DNA of 64,000 nucleotides. Origin: Bacilli bacterium. Its GTDB lineage: Bacteria; Bacillota_I; Bacilli_A; RF39; UBA660. Of this stretch, positions 4,038 through 59,291 are shown one piece after another. The stretch covers positions 162,042-226,041 of the forward strand of contig JAFWJL010000002.1 in assembly GCA_017511605.1 (NCBI GenBank). Direction: 5' to 3'. Each line of letters begins with the position of its first letter. The first letter of the stretch is position 1. A model generated the notes under the pieces. That model saw only the letters and a list, made by a program, of their open reading frames with translations. It was not told the origin of the DNA and made no database searches. A program made the position numbers and the translations under genes.

Positions 4038-5453
4038 CTATGCTACTCTTCTATAAGAATAATTGTCATCACCATAATAATTATTCTCATTAACTAGTGC
4101 TCTAGCATCTCTAACTAATTGATCTAATTCATCTCTATCAGCATCTTTGCTAGCTAATTTCATACGTAATTTTTGATTTTCTAATTTTTCTTTTTCTAAT
4201 TCACGTTTTTGTAAATCACTAACTCTTCTTAAATCATGATATTTTCCTTCAAATGAATCACGTTCTGCTTCAACTTTACTAACTGTTGCTTTTAAATCAC
4301 GAATTTCATCATTTGCAGCATCCATTGCACGAGTTTGAGATTTATATTTTTCAGATAGAGCTTTTCTTGAAGCTTTAACTTTATCTAACTCTTCTTGAGT
4401 CGTAGCTAATTCTTCTTTTGCTCTATTTAATTCTTCTTTTTGTTCAGAATTATTTTGCATTAAACTTCTAATAACATTAGCTGCATCTGAATAAGTAGTA
4501 TTCTCTTCTAATGCTGTATTATCATCAATATCATTATACTCAGTACCATATTCATCATCTTCTGTATATTTATCAATACTATCTATTTGAACTTCTGAAT
4601 CACTAAATCTATCTTCAGGTCTAACAACAGTATTTTCAATTTCACTATACAATGAATTTAAATTATCTTCTTTTTCACTCATAGATTTTAAAGCTCTATC
4701 AGTTTCAGCTTCTTGTAAGTAATCTTCTTGATCACTAACTATTTCTAATCCTTCACCACTATCTACTTCTTCAGTATTAGTTTCATTTTCTACATCAAAT
4801 GAAATTCCTTCAATAGGCATATCTGAAACAACTTCATCAGTTGGAATAGTTATTTCTTCTCCTAAATCTGTTTCTGATGGTTGAACTCCTTCTTGAACAG
4901 GAGTAACTTCTGTACTTGGAACACTATCAGTATTAAATACACTACTTAATTCTGTAGGAGCTACATCTACTGGAGCAAATCCCTCATTAATGTTTTCAAC
5001 AACAGGTTCTGTTTCAGGAACTGATGTTATTACATTTTCTTCTACTGGTTGAACCCCTTCTTGAACAGGAGCAGCTTGTTCTACTGCTACACTGTTAGGA
5101 ACTATTTCTACTTCTTCCTTAACTATTTTTTGTTCAGGTATAGAAAACTCTAAAACTTCAGTATCTGCATTATTTTTTGTTATATATAATTTATCTTTAT
5201 CTTTAGCAATAAAACTATAATACTCATTATTTACTAAATTATTTCCATTTGCATCACAGATAGTAATATCTGAAAATTGATCATTATATAAATATCTACC
5301 TTCAGGACTCATCTTAGCATTTATTTTATCTTTAATTTGTGCAGATGTGGAAACTAATTTATTTGTTGATAGAGGATCCATTCTTGATTTATTTGCTTCG
5401 ATAACACTCTCTGAAACTGGTTCAGCTGGTTCTACTAATAATATTTCTGCCAT
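4038..5453 (-). CDS. Acidic protein with C-terminal coiled coil, unknown function
   Basis: 471 residues from MAEILLVEPAEP; I chose this ATG because GAGGAGG lies 6 nt upstream. The first 115 residues form a compact domain (SPEGRYLYNDQFSDITICDANG). Residues about 120-320 are a disordered acidic linker rich in E, P, V and T containing the repeated phrase PVQEGVQP. Residues about 325-450 are a continuous heptad-rich coiled coil (EELNRAKEELATTQEELDKV), and the end is a Tyr-rich tail. No signal peptide or membrane segment, so cytoplasmic and probably oligomeric. It starts 1 nt after the 83-residue gene, in another frame, and the two look functionally linked. I do not recognise a characterised family; a cytoskeletal or division-scaffold role is only a guess. 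Confidence 0.65.
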   Translation of the reverse strand: MAEILLVEPAEPVSESVIEANKSRMDPLSTNKLVSTSAQIKDKINAKMSPEGRYLYNDQFSDITICDANGNNLVNNEYYSFIAKDKDKLYITKNNADTEVLEFSIPEQKIVKEEVEIVPNSVAVEQAAPVQEGVQPVEENVITSVPETEPVVENINEGFAPVDVAPTELSSVFNTDSVPSTEVTPVQEGVQPSETDLGEEITIPTDEVVSDMPIEGISFDVENETNTEEVDSGEGLEIVSDQEDYLQEAETDRALKSMSEKEDNLNSLYSEIENTVVRPEDRFSDSEVQIDSIDKYTEDDEYGTEYNDIDDNTALEENTTYSDAANVIRSLMQNNSEQKEELNRAKEELATTQEELDKVKASRKALSEKYKSQTRAMDAANDEIRDLKATVSKVEAERDSFEGKYHDLRRVSDLQKRELEKEKLENQKLRMKLASKDADRDELDQLVRDARALVNENNYYGDDNYSYRRVA

Positions 5454-5454
5454 A

Positions 5455-5706
5455 CTATACCTCCTCAACTACTTTAATTGACTTATTAACACAAGGTATA
5501 AGTAAATTACCTTGACTATCAATTAATCCTATATTTTGTGCTTTTGTCATTGGATCTACTGCTTCCAATAATGAAGTAGTAACAATATGATTTCCATTAG
5601 AAAGATCTTGTTTAATATAGTATCTAGATCCATCTTCCATATCAACATATGAACATGGAATATCATTTCTACCATTCCATTGAACTAATCCACTTTTAAT
5701 TTCCAT
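5455..5706 (-). CDS. Small protein partner of the acidic coiled-coil protein
   Basis: 83 residues from MEIKSGLVQWNGRND; a GTG nine bases further upstream is part of the AGGTG Shine-Dalgarno and is not the start. The sequence predicts beta strands (VDMEDGSRYYIKQDL, IGLIDSQGNLLIPCVNKSIKVV) and resembles in style the N-terminal domain of the next gene, which begins 1 nt after this stop. The pair may be a single ancestral protein split into two reading frames, or a true two-gene operon; the good ribosome site of the second gene favours the operon. No family recognised. Confidence 0.6.
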   Translation of the reverse strand: MEIKSGLVQWNGRNDIPCSYVDMEDGSRYYIKQDLSNGNHIVTTSLLEAVDPMTKAQNIGLIDSQGNLLIPCVNKSIKVVEEV

Positions 5707-5793
5707 ACTATGCACCTACTATCTATTATAATCTACTATTAATTATATCACAAAAAAATAGCAAAACAACCATTTTTATTAAAAATATATAAA

Positions 5794-10470: not shown

Positions 10471-10499
10471 AAAAAAAGAAGCAATTAGCCTCTTTTTTT
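10471..10499 (-). terminator. Terminator of rpoZ
   Basis: AAAGAGGC / GCTTCTTT stem followed by seven T on the minus strand; the rpoZ stop lies in the loop. Confidence 0.75.
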
Positions 10500-10688
10500 A
10501 ACCTCGATTAAGCCTTCAGCGACCTCTTCAAGGGCCCTTCCTATATTCTTTTTAGAAGTATACTCAGATTCAGGCATTTGTAAAAATCCGTCTCTAGCAA
10601 TCTCTTTACTTCTTCTTGCTGCAATATGAACAAGTTCATATTTTGAGTCTACGACGTTAAGTAATTTATCAATAGATGGATAGATCAT
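10485..10688 (-). CDS. rpoZ: RNA polymerase omega subunit
   Basis: 67 residues from MIYPSIDKLLNVVDSKYELV; the frame stays open upstream but GGGAGTG lies before this ATG and the promoter sits in the upstream part. The conserved omega signature YELVHIAARRSKEIARDG is intact and the end ALEEVAEGLIEV is the usual second helix. Omega binds the beta-prime subunit and helps RNAP assembly and stability. In Bacillus rpoZ follows gmk; here it is a single-gene unit, with a terminator right after it. Confidence 0.92.
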   Translation of the reverse strand: MIYPSIDKLLNVVDSKYELVHIAARRSKEIARDGFLQMPESEYTSKKNIGRALEEVAEGLIEVKKRG

Positions 10689-10710
10689 TAATATCACACT
10701 CCCTATTATT

Positions 10711-10739
10711 AGAATACTAGGACTTAATGTAAATATCAA
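10711..10739 (-). promoter_or_regulatory. sigma-A promoter for rpoZ
   Basis: Minus strand TTGATA, 17 bp, TATTCT, about 22 nt before the rpoZ ATG. Confidence 0.55.
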
Positions 10740-10785
10740 GTCAATAGACATAACTTGACAAAAATATTTACAAATATATTGACAA

Positions 10786-11100
10786 CTATCTAAAATTACA
10801 GCAAGAACCACATTCTACATTACTACAAACATTCTCTTCAGAACATGTATATACTGGTCTGTAAGTATGTTTATAAATATGGTGATTAATTATTCTAGTA
10901 TGAATTGGGCATGTATGAGGAACCTCATGGACAAAAGTTCTATTAATAACTCTTTCTTGTACCCCATTGTTATTCATGGGCATAGTAGAATTATTATTCA
11001 TCATATTAATATCTACATCCATATCTTGATTAACATAGTTATTATCCCCATTAATACTAGATTCCATATTTATATTTTGAAAAAAATCTTGATTATACAT
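10786..11100 (-). CDS. CotD-like spore coat protein
   Basis: 104 residues. The N-terminal half is Asn/Met-rich and disordered (MNNNSTMPMNNNG). The C-terminal half holds the CotD signature VHEVPHTCPIHTRIINHHIYKHTYRP, with the HP.HTR.(I/V)NHH.(Y/F)KH pattern, then a cysteine cluster VCSNVECGSCCNFR suited to disulfide cross-linking. CotD is an inner-coat protein of Bacillus spores deposited late by the mother cell. The upstream DNA carries a sigma-K-like element. AGGAGG ribosome site. Stands alone between rpoZ and a regulatory pair. Confidence 0.82.
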   Translation of the reverse strand: MYNQDFFQNINMESSINGDNNYVNQDMDVDINMMNNNSTMPMNNNGVQERVINRTFVHEVPHTCPIHTRIINHHIYKHTYRPVYTCSEENVCSNVECGSCCNFR

Positions 11101-24082: not shown

Positions 24083-25012
24083 CTATTTATCATATGTTAA
24101 AAAACATTTTTTGAGAAAATTAGTTATATTCTTACTATTATTCGATTCATAATAATCAACTAAAAGTTTTTTATATTCTTCAATACTATCAGTAGGTATA
24201 ACTATCATTCCTACACCATTAGATATTAAATAATGATTAGCAAATATAACAGAGGTTCTTTTATTACCATCTAAAAAAACTTGAGAACGCACAATATAAA
24301 GTAATAATTCAATAGCTATATCAATTTTACTTTTCTTTTTAGCTATTATTGTATTAATTGATTCGATAACATCTATCTCTATAGGAATATTAGGAGTCCA
24401 TTTAGTACCACCTATCTTTACAGGTATACTTCTTATAATACCTGCATTATAAAAAAAACCTTCTTCTACTAATTTATTAATTGTACACAAAATTGAATAA
24501 TTAGTTTTTGTAGTAATAACACTCTTATTTAATATAAATTCCCAAGCATGTTTTAAATTAACTATCTTCATAATATCATCAGCACTCATATTATTAACTA
24601 CTCCACCTTCTATAATACTTTCCGTATCTAAAAGTGTTGTAGCAACACCCTCAAGCATTGCCTGTGTGTAAATAGTATCAGCCATATGTTTCTTAGCAAA
24701 ATCAATGTTTAAAGAAACATCTTTTTCAATATTAGAATCAGAATACCCTAGCAAAACTAATTCCTTTTGAAATTTTCTTAATTTCTTCTTCAATTCTTTT
24801 GCAACTAAATTATTTTCATTAATAACATTAAATAAAACATCAGTATATTCGCCTATATACTTAGTAGTTTGAACTCCATTTTCCCTAGAATGACAATAAA
24901 TATACTTATTATCACGAGAATCGCGCACTTCAATAGATCCATAAATCAAATTATCTAATTCAAATTCTAATATTTTAATTTGCTCTAATAAATTAAGTAT
25001 TCTATCACCCAT
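24083..25012 (-). CDS. Fic-domain protein with degenerate active site
   Basis: 309 residues. N-terminal helical domain, then a Fic domain about 130-290 with LKHAWEFIL and the core loop SQVFLDGNKRTSVIFANHYLI. The canonical Fic motif is HPFx(D/E)GNGR; here the catalytic His is Gln244 and the following Pro is Val, while the phosphate-binding DGNKR is intact. Without the His, AMP transfer by the usual mechanism is unlikely. A group of Firmicutes Fic-like proteins with this Q/xFxDGNKR loop exists without known function. The gene has a strong promoter overlapped by a 12-bp repeated element. It precedes murE, which may ride on its transcript. Confidence 0.8.
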   Translation of the reverse strand: MGDRILNLLEQIKILEFELDNLIYGSIEVRDSRDNKYIYCHSRENGVQTTKYIGEYTDVLFNVINENNLVAKELKKKLRKFQKELVLLGYSDSNIEKDVSLNIDFAKKHMADTIYTQAMLEGVATTLLDTESIIEGGVVNNMSADDIMKIVNLKHAWEFILNKSVITTKTNYSILCTINKLVEEGFFYNAGIIRSIPVKIGGTKWTPNIPIEIDVIESINTIIAKKKSKIDIAIELLLYIVRSQVFLDGNKRTSVIFANHYLISNGVGMIVIPTDSIEEYKKLLVDYYESNNSKNITNFLKKCFLTYDK

Positions 25013-25028
25013 AATATCACCTGTAACT

Positions 25029-25057
25029 ATTATATAATAAAAAAATTATTATGTGAA
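25029..25057 (-). promoter_or_regulatory. sigma-A promoter for the Fic-like gene
   Basis: Minus strand TTCACA, 17 bp, TATAAT. The -35 is part of repeat copy A at 25049-25060. Confidence 0.65.
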
Positions 25058-25108
25058 ACATTTTTAACATTTTTTATCAATTTTGTTTCACATAATTGTT
25101 TCACATAA
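25049..25108. repeat. Three copies of TGTTTCACATAA upstream of the Fic-like gene
   Basis: Copy A at 25049-25060 is inverted (TTATGTGAAACA); copies B at 25084-25095 and C at 25097-25108 are direct. All 12 bases match in all three. A covers the -35; B and C lie 24 bp upstream, 13 bp apart start to start. This is the layout of a regulator-binding array. Confidence 0.75.
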
Positions 25109-25130
25109 AAAGGAGCTATACTCCTTTTCT
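25105..25130 (-). terminator. Terminator of the sirtuin gene
   Basis: AAAAGGAG-TATAG-CTCCTTTT hairpin on the minus strand; includes the TAG stop. Confidence 0.75.
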
Positions 25131-25901
25131 ATATTCCTTAATTTTTTGAGCAACTTCCATAATATCGCCATCATACTTATAATCAGCAAAATAATCATAA
25201 TCAGTTGCACCTTTATTAACTATAAATAATTTTTTATGTCTTCCCATATAAGTTTTCTTTTCCCCTATAAAATCACGAACTAGATTAGCAGCAGGATCAA
25301 CATCTAATTCTGTGCCTAAAACCAATACACTATTACTATATCTAATCATATTTCTAGAAATGTTCAATAAATAAGGATCTAGTTCTTCTCCATATAATAT
25401 TATATCTGGACGTATTAATCCCCCACAACTACATTTTGGAACAATATCCATTCCAATAATATCATTTAACGAATAATTTCTATTACAACTCATACAATGA
25501 AATTTGCGGGCATTTCCATGTAATTCTATTACTTCTTTTGATCCAGCAGCAGTATCTAATCCATCAATATTTTGCGTCAATATAGATCTAACTACACCCT
25601 CTTTTTGAAGCTCTGCAATTACCTCATGCATCAAATTAGGTTTGACATTTTCATTAATTAAATATTTTCTAAAAAATTTATAAAACTTTAATGGATTTTC
25701 TTCCAAATATTTATGTGAAAGAATCTCTCTACCGTCTACTTTTTCTTTGTATAAACCATTTTCTCCATTAAAATCTCTTATTCCACTGGCTGTAGAAAGA
25801 CCAGCTCCAGTAAAAAATGTCATACCTTTTTTGTCTATACACTCAATAAGTGCTTTCACAAATTCATCAATATTCACAGTATCAGCTCCTATATGAAGCA
25901 T
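25116..25901 (-). CDS. Sir2-family NAD-dependent protein deacylase
   Basis: 261 residues. NAD motif FFTGAGLSTASGIRDFNG near residue 30, TQNIDGLD near 118, catalytic His in VIELHGNARKFHC, and two zinc Cys pairs CMSC and CSCGG about 20 residues apart; the closing VLGTELDVDPAANLV and FIVNKG are also typical. Family enzymes remove acetyl or other acyl groups from protein lysines using NAD, releasing nicotinamide. The GIRDFNG form differs from the common GIPDFRG, and NIDGLD replaces NIDGLH, which may alter acyl preference. Located between recA and the Fic-like gene, each with a terminator, so single-gene transcription is likely. Confidence 0.9.
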   Translation of the reverse strand: MLHIGADTVNIDEFVKALIECIDKKGMTFFTGAGLSTASGIRDFNGENGLYKEKVDGREILSHKYLEENPLKFYKFFRKYLINENVKPNLMHEVIAELQKEGVVRSILTQNIDGLDTAAGSKEVIELHGNARKFHCMSCNRNYSLNDIIGMDIVPKCSCGGLIRPDIILYGEELDPYLLNISRNMIRYSNSVLVLGTELDVDPAANLVRDFIGEKKTYMGRHKKLFIVNKGATDYDYFADYKYDGDIMEVAQKIKEYRKGV

Positions 25902-28224: not shown

Positions 28225-28558
28225 TAATATAAATAAGCCATGTTCTGTACCCTTACGGGCGACAAACATTTATCTACCTTTCGGTCCCTAACTCCATTCA
28301 GTTCTTTCGTTAGGACTCTCCTACCAATTTTGGATTTCTCACTCGCGGAGTTTACCACGTTTCATTCTCTTCTTTCGAAAAGATTCGTCACTGCGGCACT
28401 TTATGGGATATTCCATATCCATTGGACTTAGGACATCTCCCGTCGTTAGTAAAACTACCCTAGGTTATTTATTCCCTAGGCACGAACACTACTACCATCA
28501 CAGGATAGTGTGAGCATGGACTTTCCTCAAGGGTCTCAAGAACCCCAGCGTTTGTCTA
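28225..28558 (-). ncRNA. rnpB: RNase P RNA
   Basis: The minus-strand RNA begins near ATAGACAAACGCTGGG and contains the universal CR I block GAGGAAAGTCCATGCTC about 30 nt in, and the CR V block GTACAGAACATGGCTTA at the 3' end, with ACAGNAA-type core in between. Length about 330 nt fits bacterial P RNA. It is the catalytic subunit that removes 5' leaders from pre-tRNA. It lies between gpsB and the rodZ-like gene on the same strand; gpsB-rnpB is also the Bacillus order. Exact ends are estimates. Confidence 0.96.
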
Positions 28559-28562
28559 TATA

Positions 28563-28910
28563 TTATTTGTCTTCTTCTTCCTCGTTATTTTTTTGACTAT
28601 AAACCATCTTCTCAAGTTGAGAAAGTCTACGCATAATATCTACATTCGTAATTTCTCCGCCATTAGAGTTAGCAGCTACTTCCATATTTAACTTAGTATT
28701 ACGTAGTTCTTGTTTTAAACTCATAATTTCACTAAGCAAATCTGTTTTCTCCTTCTCTAAACCATTAATGATTTCTAAGAATTGCTCATAGTCTCCAATA
28801 ATATCATCTAGAAATTGATCAACTTCTTTTAAACGATAACCTCTTGTATCAATTTTAAAACTTTTCTCTAAGATATCCTTAGGCATGAATTTAATTCTAT
28901 TTTGATACAT
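28563..28910 (-). CDS. gpsB: GpsB, cell division/elongation coordinator
   Basis: 115 residues with the DivIVA-type N-terminus IKFMPKDILEKSFKIDTRGYRLKEVDQFLDDIIGDYEQF, a coiled coil (EKEKTDLLSEIMSLKQEL) and a short conserved C-terminal helix DIMRRLSQLEKMVYS that trimerises or tetramerises the protein. GpsB brings the class A PBP between septum and side wall; its partner gene ponA is encoded 0.9 kb away on the opposite strand. Own consensus promoter. Position before rnpB as in Bacillus. Confidence 0.93.
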   Translation of the reverse strand: MYQNRIKFMPKDILEKSFKIDTRGYRLKEVDQFLDDIIGDYEQFLEIINGLEKEKTDLLSEIMSLKQELRNTKLNMEVAANSNGGEITNVDIMRRLSQLEKMVYSQKNNEEEEDK

Positions 28911-37576: not shown

Positions 37577-37599
37577 AAATGCGAATTGGAGGGGATATT

Positions 37600-38907
37600 A
37601 TGAATCTACCTACTGTTGCATTAGTAGGACGTCCTAATGTTGGTAAATCTACTTTATTTAATAAAATAGTTGGTAAACAAGTATCAATCATCGAAGATTT
37701 ACCTGGAGTTACTAGAGACAGAATCTATCATGAAGCAACATATAATAAAAAGAGATTCTATCTAATTGATACCGGTGGAATAGATGCTACTAAAATGGAT
37801 TTTAATGACGAAATCAAAATGCAAGCAGAAATAGCCATTAATGAAGCAGATGTCGTAGTATTCATAGTAGATGGCAAAGATGGAATAAACTCAAATGATT
37901 TAATCGTAAGAGATATCCTAAGAAAAACAGATAAAAAAGTAATAGTAGCTATTAATAAAATAGATGTTAAAGAAGCTAAAGATAATATATATGATTTCTA
38001 TGAATTGGGATTTGATACATATATTCCTATAAGTAGTATCCACAATACGGGTTTCATTGAATTAATGGATAATATCACAATGAATTTTCATGAAAAAGAA
38101 GAACGTATTGATGATAGAATAAAATTTTCAATAATAGGAAGACCTAATGTAGGTAAAAGTTCTTTAATGAATGCCCTATTAAATGAAGAACGAGTTGTAG
38201 TATCAGATATTGCTGGAACTACCCGTGATTCAATAGACTCAGTATTAACCTATCATAATGAAGAATTTGTAGTAATAGACACTGCTGGGATGAGAAAAAA
38301 AGGAAAAGTATTTGAATCAGTAGAAAAATATAGTTTATTTAGATCGTTAAAGTCAATCGATAGAAGCGATTTATGTCTAGTAGTAATAAATGCTGAAGAA
38401 GGTATTACTGAACATGATAAACATATCGCAGGATATGCCATTGAAAGAGGAAAAGGATTAATATTTGTAGTTAATAAATGGGATACAGTAGAAAACACTA
38501 CTATAAATGAATTTTAAAAACTAATGAGAGCTGAATTTCAATTTGCTACATATGCTCCAATTGTATTCTTATCTGCAAAAACTAAAAAAAGAATACATAC
38601 TTTAATGCCCGAAGTATTAAAAGTAAAAGAAAATATAAAAAGAGAAGTAAAGACATCTCTATTAAATGATATGATACTAGAAGCATATAACCTAAATTTA
38701 CCTCCATCATATAAAGGTAAAAGATTAAAAATATATTTCACTAGTCAAACAGGTATTAATCCACCTAAATTTACATTTAGAGTAAATAATAAAGGTTTAG
38801 TACACTTCTCATATGAAAGATATTTAGAAAATAAAATAAGAGAAAACTTTGATTTTGAAGGTACTCCTATAGTACTACAATTTAAAAACAGGAATGGTGA
38901 TGAATAA
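37600..38907 (+). pseudogene. der: GTPase Der (EngA) interrupted by an in-frame TAA
   Basis: The first part (37600-38517, 305 codons from MNLPTVALVGRPNVGKST) carries G domain 1 and most of G domain 2: GRPNVGKSSLMN, DTAGMRKKG, and NKWD at the G4 site. Then NEF is followed by TAA at 38515-38517, and the same frame resumes KLMRAEFQFATYAPIVFLSAKTKKRIHTLMP through the KH-like domain to TAA at 38907. Compared with Bacillus Der (KEFEENIRDHFQF) the stop stands exactly where Glu is expected, so one base change GAA to TAA explains it. Der is essential for 50S assembly. Options are sequencing error, true null with a second copy elsewhere, readthrough, or a working two-chain Der with reinitiation at ATG 38524, 6 nt after the stop. 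Confidence 0.85.
38524..38907 (+). CDS. C-terminal fragment of Der (G5 and KH-like domain)
   Basis: 127 codons from ATG 38524, if this part is translated on its own. It contains the G5 motif VFLSAKTKKR that completes G domain 2, and the C-terminal KH-like domain FRVNNKGLVHFSYERYLENKIRENFDFEGTPI, which is full length and well conserved. There is no Shine-Dalgarno before the ATG, so only termination-reinitiation coupled to the upstream part could feed it. The absence of further stops or drift suggests the interruption is recent or that the part is still used. Confidence 0.5.
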   Translation: MRAEFQFATYAPIVFLSAKTKKRIHTLMPEVLKVKENIKREVKTSLLNDMILEAYNLNLPPSYKGKRLKIYFTSQTGINPPKFTFRVNNKGLVHFSYERYLENKIRENFDFEGTPIVLQFKNRNGDE

Positions 38908-39438: not shown

Positions 39439-39464
39439 AAGACTAGTTATTTAGTCTTTTTTAT
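39435..39464 (+). terminator. Terminator of spoVIF
   Basis: AAAAGACTA-GTTAT-TTAGTCTTTTTT hairpin overlapping the TAA stop. Confidence 0.85.
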
Positions 39465-39492
39465 TATATAATTAAAAAGATAGGAGGTATAT

Positions 39493-40611
39493 ATGAAGAA
39501 AATAGTTTATATTCAATTCCCAGATAATACAATACATGATGTAGAAGTATATAAATTCTGTAAAACAGAAAATAATATGTATTATATAGAATATTTTGAT
39601 CTTATTAAGCAAATAGACATGTATACCGTATTATCAAATATTAATAATACATTAATAAATATCCCAGATAATGAAATACCATTTGATACTCTATCACAAA
39701 ATGCTATTAAATTGGATTTAAATATTCTTCCAGGATATATACCATGTATTACATTAATTAACAAAAAGGAAATACAAACAATAGAACCTCCTAAAGCACA
39801 AACTCAAAATCAGTTTATAGTATATGTAGATCAAAATAATAATAAATATATAACTAAAAATATCACAAATAAATATGGTATTACTAATAAAGATGAAACA
39901 ATTACTGTAGATGGAATCACTTATGTTAAGGTATATCAAAGTAATATAGATGATATAATTAAAAAATCAGGAAACACTGAAACTCCTATATATAAAGACT
40001 ATTATAATAACCAAGTTTCTAATTACGATGCTCCAGAACTAACAAAAGAACAAGGTAAACCAATAGATCCACCATATGTTCATGTTCATCATATAATGTC
40101 ATATTATTATGATATGCAAGATAATAAATATTATCTTGATAGAGAGGGACTAGATATAGCTCGTAAATACAATGTAGAAATTGAAGGTACCCCAACAATA
40201 GCTTTAGATAAAAATTGCTACTCTATCACAAAAGAACAAATAGAGAATTTAAAAGAAAAAACAATAGAAATGTATAGTTGGATAGAAAAAGCAGTTCTAA
40301 TAAATAAAGATAAACCTACAATCAAAAGTGTATTAGCTGTACATATATGTAATATTGATAATAATAATTTTATTCCATTAGATATATTTAAAAAATATAA
40401 ATTAATGCAAGCACAGAAATTAATAAAAGTAGATGGAATAATATATATAAACGTAACTGAAGATGATCTCGCAGAAATAAAAATGTCTTATTCCAAAGAT
40501 CATACAGAAATAGTACTAATAAATAAAAAAATAAGAAGAAAAACCAACGAACTAGAGAATATGTTAGATATAAGTACTAGAGAAGACAGAGAAAAACCAA
40601 CTCAAAAATAA
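39493..40611 (+). CDS. Protein with three tandem ~50-residue repeats, between spoVIF and spoIVA
   Basis: 372 residues, no signal peptide. I see three related units: about 108-157 (FIVYVDQNNNKYITKNITNKYG ... TVDGITYVKVYQSNIDDI), about 205-256 (YYYDMQDNKYYLDREGLDIARKYN ... NCYSITKEQIENL) and about 285-335 (HICNIDNNNFIPLDIFKKYK ... VDGIIYINVTEDDLAEI). Each has a beta strand, an NN/DN turn, a K-Y helix and a Y-strand followed by an acidic helix. An HVHHIM cluster precedes repeat 2. Unknown family. Location between two spore genes, with AGGAGG site and own terminator, makes it a candidate spore protein. Confidence 0.7.
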   Translation: MKKIVYIQFPDNTIHDVEVYKFCKTENNMYYIEYFDLIKQIDMYTVLSNINNTLINIPDNEIPFDTLSQNAIKLDLNILPGYIPCITLINKKEIQTIEPPKAQTQNQFIVYVDQNNNKYITKNITNKYGITNKDETITVDGITYVKVYQSNIDDIIKKSGNTETPIYKDYYNNQVSNYDAPELTKEQGKPIDPPYVHVHHIMSYYYDMQDNKYYLDREGLDIARKYNVEIEGTPTIALDKNCYSITKEQIENLKEKTIEMYSWIEKAVLINKDKPTIKSVLAVHICNIDNNNFIPLDIFKKYKLMQAQKLIKVDGIIYINVTEDDLAEIKMSYSKDHTEIVLINKKIRRKTNELENMLDISTREDREKPTQK

Positions 40612-40632
40612 AGAACTTTTTAGTTCTTTTTT
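40608..40632 (+). terminator. Terminator of the triple-repeat gene
   Basis: AAAGAAC-TTTTTA-GTTCTTT with eight T. Confidence 0.85.
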
Positions 40633-59081: not shown

Positions 59082-59283
59082 TAAAAAACGCGAAACAACT
59101 CATCTAAGGACGAATTATTCGCGGTACCACCTTAATTCATGTATAAACATGCACTTAAACTTTAACGCAGCTAACGATGTTTTCTAAAGAGTTGTATTTC
59201 ATAAAATAATATTTCTAATTTTCACCAACCATTAGATCTCTAAATAATAATTATTTTACTACTAAGTCTCCCTCACTGAAAAC
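59082..59283 (-). promoter_or_regulatory. Tyr T-box riboswitch of tyrS
   Basis: About 200-nt leader on the minus strand. The T-box sequence AAGGTGGTACCGCG is at 59120-59133, the AGTGA-type stem I start near 59275, and the specifier loop GAAATACAAC places the Tyr codon UAC at 59194-59196. A downstream GCGAA...TTCGC stem with GTTTTTT (59087-59123) is the terminator, competing with the T-box antiterminator. Uncharged tRNA-Tyr binding would switch tyrS on. Confidence 0.95.
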
Positions 59284-59291
59284 TTAACTAT

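Follow-up and report, generated by a model that had tools for sequence, protein, structure and literature searches.

The ribosome biogenesis GTPase Der, or EngA (TIGR03594; B. subtilis EngA, PDB 2hjg), carries two G domains and a KH-like domain, and we take the B. subtilis protein YphC to be EngA. In-frame stops that are recoded are known from selenoprotein genes (UGA), from the frameshift of prfB and from ochre suppression. Single-base nonsense errors and private null alleles also occur in assembled sequences. The available excerpt of one study, the title of which describes EngA of B. subtilis as essential, names YphC as one of six GTPases that this bacterium needs for growth, reports that neither G domain is dispensable in vivo, and cites E. 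coli Der as essential for the biogenesis of the 50S subunit (PMC3466195). According to the same excerpt, E. coli carrying a G4 change in one domain, which leaves one functional G domain, still grew at 42 C (PMC3466195).

The der gene of the 64-kb stretch of DNA that we analyzed as a whole (the window) shares with recoded genes an in-frame stop inside an open gene, and with nonsense errors and null alleles the involvement of one base in one sequence, in a conserved gene of which an otherwise identical intact copy exists elsewhere (Table 1). The first-pass annotation had described a TAA at 38515-38517 followed by an intact KH part, and the sequence, the reading frame and Pfam all confirmed this: read from ATG 37600, the frame continues past the TAA with KLMRAEFQF up to TAA 38905-38907, and the 127-codon part contains the KH-like domain (residues 350-429; Pfam KH_dom-like, 106 bits). 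In the 305-aa part, Pfam MMR_HSR1 matched two stretches. Counted on P0002, an intact Der described below, NKWD (G4 of G domain 2) occupies residues 292-295 and SAK (G5) residues 325-327, so that the stop does lie between these 2 motifs, as proposed. With the standard code, the Der chain of the window ends past G4 of G domain 2, ahead of the KH-like domain, and two complete G domains and a KH-like domain are present in one chain in P0002 but not in the window. The TIGR03594 profile (Der/EngA; curated cut-off 306.7 bits) scored the 305-aa part alone above the cut-off (410 bits, profile positions 1-306) and the 127-aa part alone below it (122.3 bits). A single base change is enough to make the TAA.

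Table 1. Coordinates of der, its parts and other features of the window.
Feature	Position	Strand	Remarks
der (EngA) frame, 435 codons plus terminal TAA	37600..38907	+	Interrupted at codon 306; ORFs of relatives (n = 4) match across the stop
Shine-Dalgarno-like GGAGGGG of der	37588..37594	+	Read in the sequence, before ATG 37600
5' open part, 305 aa, with G domain 1 plus G domain 2 as far as G4	37600..38514	+	
In-frame TAA, codon 306 of der	38515..38517	+	After ...VENTTINEF
3' open part, 127 codons starting at an internal Met, with the remainder of G domain 2 (G5), then the KH-like domain	38524..38907	+	
Bacterial class B RNase P RNA	28229-28564	-	Rfam, 262 bits
T-box leader	59103-59285	-	Rfam, 105 bits

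Homologues were sought among approximately 5.8 billion proteins using the der frame with X at the stop as a query, and the figures given here come from the best 120 of 8000 matches. P0002, an intact Der of 435 aa found on 12 contigs, agrees with the window frame in each of the other 434 residues and has a Glu at the stop. Its source tag is '-', the tag of window-encoded proteins, probably because P0002 equals the window frame with the TAA read as Glu, and its origin is thereby hidden. The best 120 of the 8000 homologues were 433-442 aa long, with E at the site in 117 of them and T in 3. P0002 scored over the TIGR03594 cut-off (552.4 bits), and its alignment with B. subtilis EngA spans residues 1-426 with Glu at the stop site in both proteins, in agreement with the earlier alignment by eye that placed the stop where Bacillus Der has Glu. 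Compared with Der/EngA, the window sequence alone is broken by the TAA at codon 306. No identical 305-aa product was present among the best 120 matches of a search with the 305-aa part, and no identical 127-aa product among the best 120 of a search with the 127-aa part, possibly because the database lacks the window's own record.

A scan of genome contigs detected a sense codon at this site in all 80 related loci (titled as metagenome-assembled genomes (MAGs) or uncultured bacteria, mostly Bacilli-type and several with gut-sample names), the closest of which has 97% protein identity to the window der. The residue at codon 306 is Thr in 36 loci, Glu in 24, Ile in 7, Lys in 7, Leu in 5 and Arg in 1. 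The first-pass annotation had named GAA or AAA at this codon in a close relative as evidence against its reading, and both were found: GAA in 24 of the 80 loci, the first 16 listed included, and AAA in 4. A scan of viral contigs found no relative. Of 39 genomes in the genus to which the closest MAG belongs, 33 contain a full-length der free of stops, each with one der-strength match, 4 have no match of that strength, and 2 have der in two pieces (G020 and G016). The G020 pieces are found at two contig ends, on separate contigs. In G016 (contig 30, L115), der lacks residues 219-235, its parts are in different frames and it is located near the contig end; this gap is probably an assembly fault. 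In a family draw of 291 genomes, der matched at E 1e-60 or better in 271 and not in 20, and no stop in der occurred at the places listed from these genomes; G231, from the same draw and outside the places listed, has two der matches. The two closest genomes contain one der apiece, their remaining matches being far weaker. In contrast to recoded genes, the stop of der is a TAA, no recoding signal was found, and a stop occurs at this codon in 0 of the 80 related loci and in frame in no der row of the 39 genus genomes. The TAA at codon 306 thus seems, from these comparisons of sequences, to be private to the window.

The rest of the window was compared with four relatives, which show the same order, with gaps, in pieces of approximately 64-93% DNA identity; the contigs of G001 and G002 span only part of the window, and for them the comparison refers to the covered parts. 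An insertion or rearrangement at der is not supported, as the DNA match of each of the four runs through der without a break. To the window we also matched 162 ORFs of these relatives (at least 100 aa, spurious ones included), 13 of which had a stop inside the match. Four of these are der, one per relative and all at 38515, and the other 9 stops, each seen with one relative, are antisense to a longer gene (5) or fall either at the end of a gene or ahead of its start (4). No frame split was reported by this test, which required 45% identity on both sides and for that reason missed one non-core split pair, 5715-5455 and 5453-4038 (minus strand). As far as these 162 ORFs reach, the earlier statement that no other core gene is broken holds. 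As a control, 58 window proteins and P0002 were compared with 90 partly overlapping stretches of relatives (1.54 Mb), leaving ORF 10485-10811 out of the queries and dropping matches below 55% identity before counting. Five of 639 gene-locus pairs at this identity or above were broken, by an internal stop in 4 cases, 3 of them 15-18 positions from the match start, and by a frame split in 1. Because only 2 to 5 of the 639 pairs look broken, which corresponds to about 0.2-0.5 expected per 60 genes, one broken gene in approximately 60, chosen post hoc, is unremarkable and within chance. Of all single-base changes in 59 window genes, 5.8% make a stop.

An intact protein identical at 434 residues, P0002, and 80 related loci without the stop are what is observed. 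We consider it probable that the stop is a base or consensus error and that the organism has an intact Der: the TAA would be a one-base defect private to the assembled sequence, most likely introduced in base calling or consensus building, and ordinary Der would be made. That it is an error and not a real allele we infer from the essential role of Der in the model species and from the lack of a second der-strength copy in the relatives. Against this reading, the conserved genes of the window contain no other sign of base errors, so that a raised error rate is not supported, and the growth of E. coli at 42 C in the excerpt cited above suggests that loss of G domain 2 alone need not be lethal everywhere; the window stop would remove the KH domain as well as G domain 2. 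A real nonsense allele, private to one lineage or a minor subpopulation in which a recent mutation has abolished Der, and either on its way out or caught by chance, could be produced by one base change and agrees with the match of all other residues to P0002, which would make such an allele very recent. We regard it as unlikely, since the excerpt of PMC3466195 reports Der to be essential in both B. subtilis and E. coli, a second copy is missing in relatives, and a lethal allele would rarely be abundant enough for assembly. We therefore rank a sequence or consensus error first and a real, short-lived null second, and the stop is most likely one of these rather than new biology. Of the four options raised in the first-pass annotation, assembly error and recent null are accordingly favored, whereas read-through and a functional split Der found no positive support. 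Our searches for papers on nonsense errors in metagenome-assembled genomes and on oxidative sequencing artefacts returned none matching all terms. A premature stop in an essential gene of one assembly calls for a comparison with near-identical proteins before any conclusion of recoding or gene loss is drawn; should reads back the stop at full depth, nonsense suppression in an uncultured lineage of Bacilli would be indicated.

Reading through the TAA, whether by leaky termination or with the help of an ochre suppressor tRNA, would yield full-length Der, and since T, E, I, K, L or R occupies codon 306 in the 80 loci, the product would probably be functional if it were made. However, TAA is an ordinary terminator here: the 63 ORFs of the window (both der pieces counted) end in TAA in 40 cases, that of der itself included, in TAG in 23 and in TGA in none, and TAAA is their commonest stop context (22 of 63, among them the internal stop of der). 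Moreover, the 64-kb window contains no other internal TAA backed by all relatives, of the kind that an altered code would produce, RF1 and RF2 are over cut-off in 37 and 34 of the 39 genus genomes, respectively, and the RNA structure predicted around the stop barely beats shuffled sequences (z -1.88, 7 of 200 shuffles as good). Read-through is thus very unlikely, and we give even less credence to a natural strain whose ochre suppressor tRNA, or leaky termination at TAA, would let it live with a nonsense codon in a GTPase essential for ribosome assembly. The alternative in which Der consists of two proteins of 305 and 127 aa, the second made by reinitiation at ATG 38524, that assemble into a working GTPase benefits from the position of this ATG, six bases past the stop, from 10 of the 120 C-terminal database fragments listed, which come from other sequences and also start at residue 309, and from one 127-aa fragment (P0147) that sits on a 35-kb contig. 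The starts of these fragments nevertheless scatter over many internal Met residues, with residue 231 the most frequent (35 of 120), which is what gene calls on broken or cut genes would give, and the Met at 38524 is kept in the intact near relatives shown, which means that it is not a new start. Inspection of the upstream sequence bore out the earlier remark that a start is present and a Shine-Dalgarno is not, while the der start has GGAGGGG and a truly split gene of the window has GAGGAGG before its second ATG. A loose motif test, with starts chosen mechanically, finds a Shine-Dalgarno in just 34 of 63 window ORFs, so its absence at 38524 leaves room for reinitiation. The break, however, falls within G domain 2, between G4 and G5, and we find a split Der scarcely credible.

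Some further candidates and features were recorded. TAA as a sense codon is not supported, since it ends 40 of the 63 window ORFs. A frameshift at TTT TAA was rejected by eye: after a +1 slip a TAA follows within two codons, after a -1 slip a TGA follows at approximately 7 codons, and neither frame reaches the KH domain. No tRNA gene was found in the window. Loss of RF2, considered because no window ORF ends in TGA, is not supported, given the genus genomes with RF2 over cut-off. TGA-ended ORFs of at least 150 aa numbered 0 in the fetched stretches of G001 (23 ORFs), G002 (25) and G008 (61), although RF2 (prfB) is over cut-off in these three genomes, and in G003 TGA ends 5 of 66 ORFs.

The ORFs 5715-5455 and 5453-4038 (minus strand) match consecutive parts of one 556-aa ORF of G008; the former ends one base before ATG 5453, with GAGGAGG at 5466-5460, and neither contains a Pfam family. 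This part of the window (4038-5715, minus strand) resembles the outcome of a gene fission or fusion. Between der and a spoIVA homologue, a 372-aa ORF (39493-40611, plus strand) without a match in Pfam, NCBIfam, PADLOC or PHROG lies within a stretch (39439-40613) that is cleanly absent in G008, and at the same place G001 has a 290-aa ORF with 28% identity over residues 106-369. The window also encodes Fic-domain and SIR2-domain genes (24083-25901, minus strand). G001 lacks 24097-25901 at the corresponding place, and in G002 the DNA match extends over the Fic gene but leaves most of the SIR2 gene uncovered.
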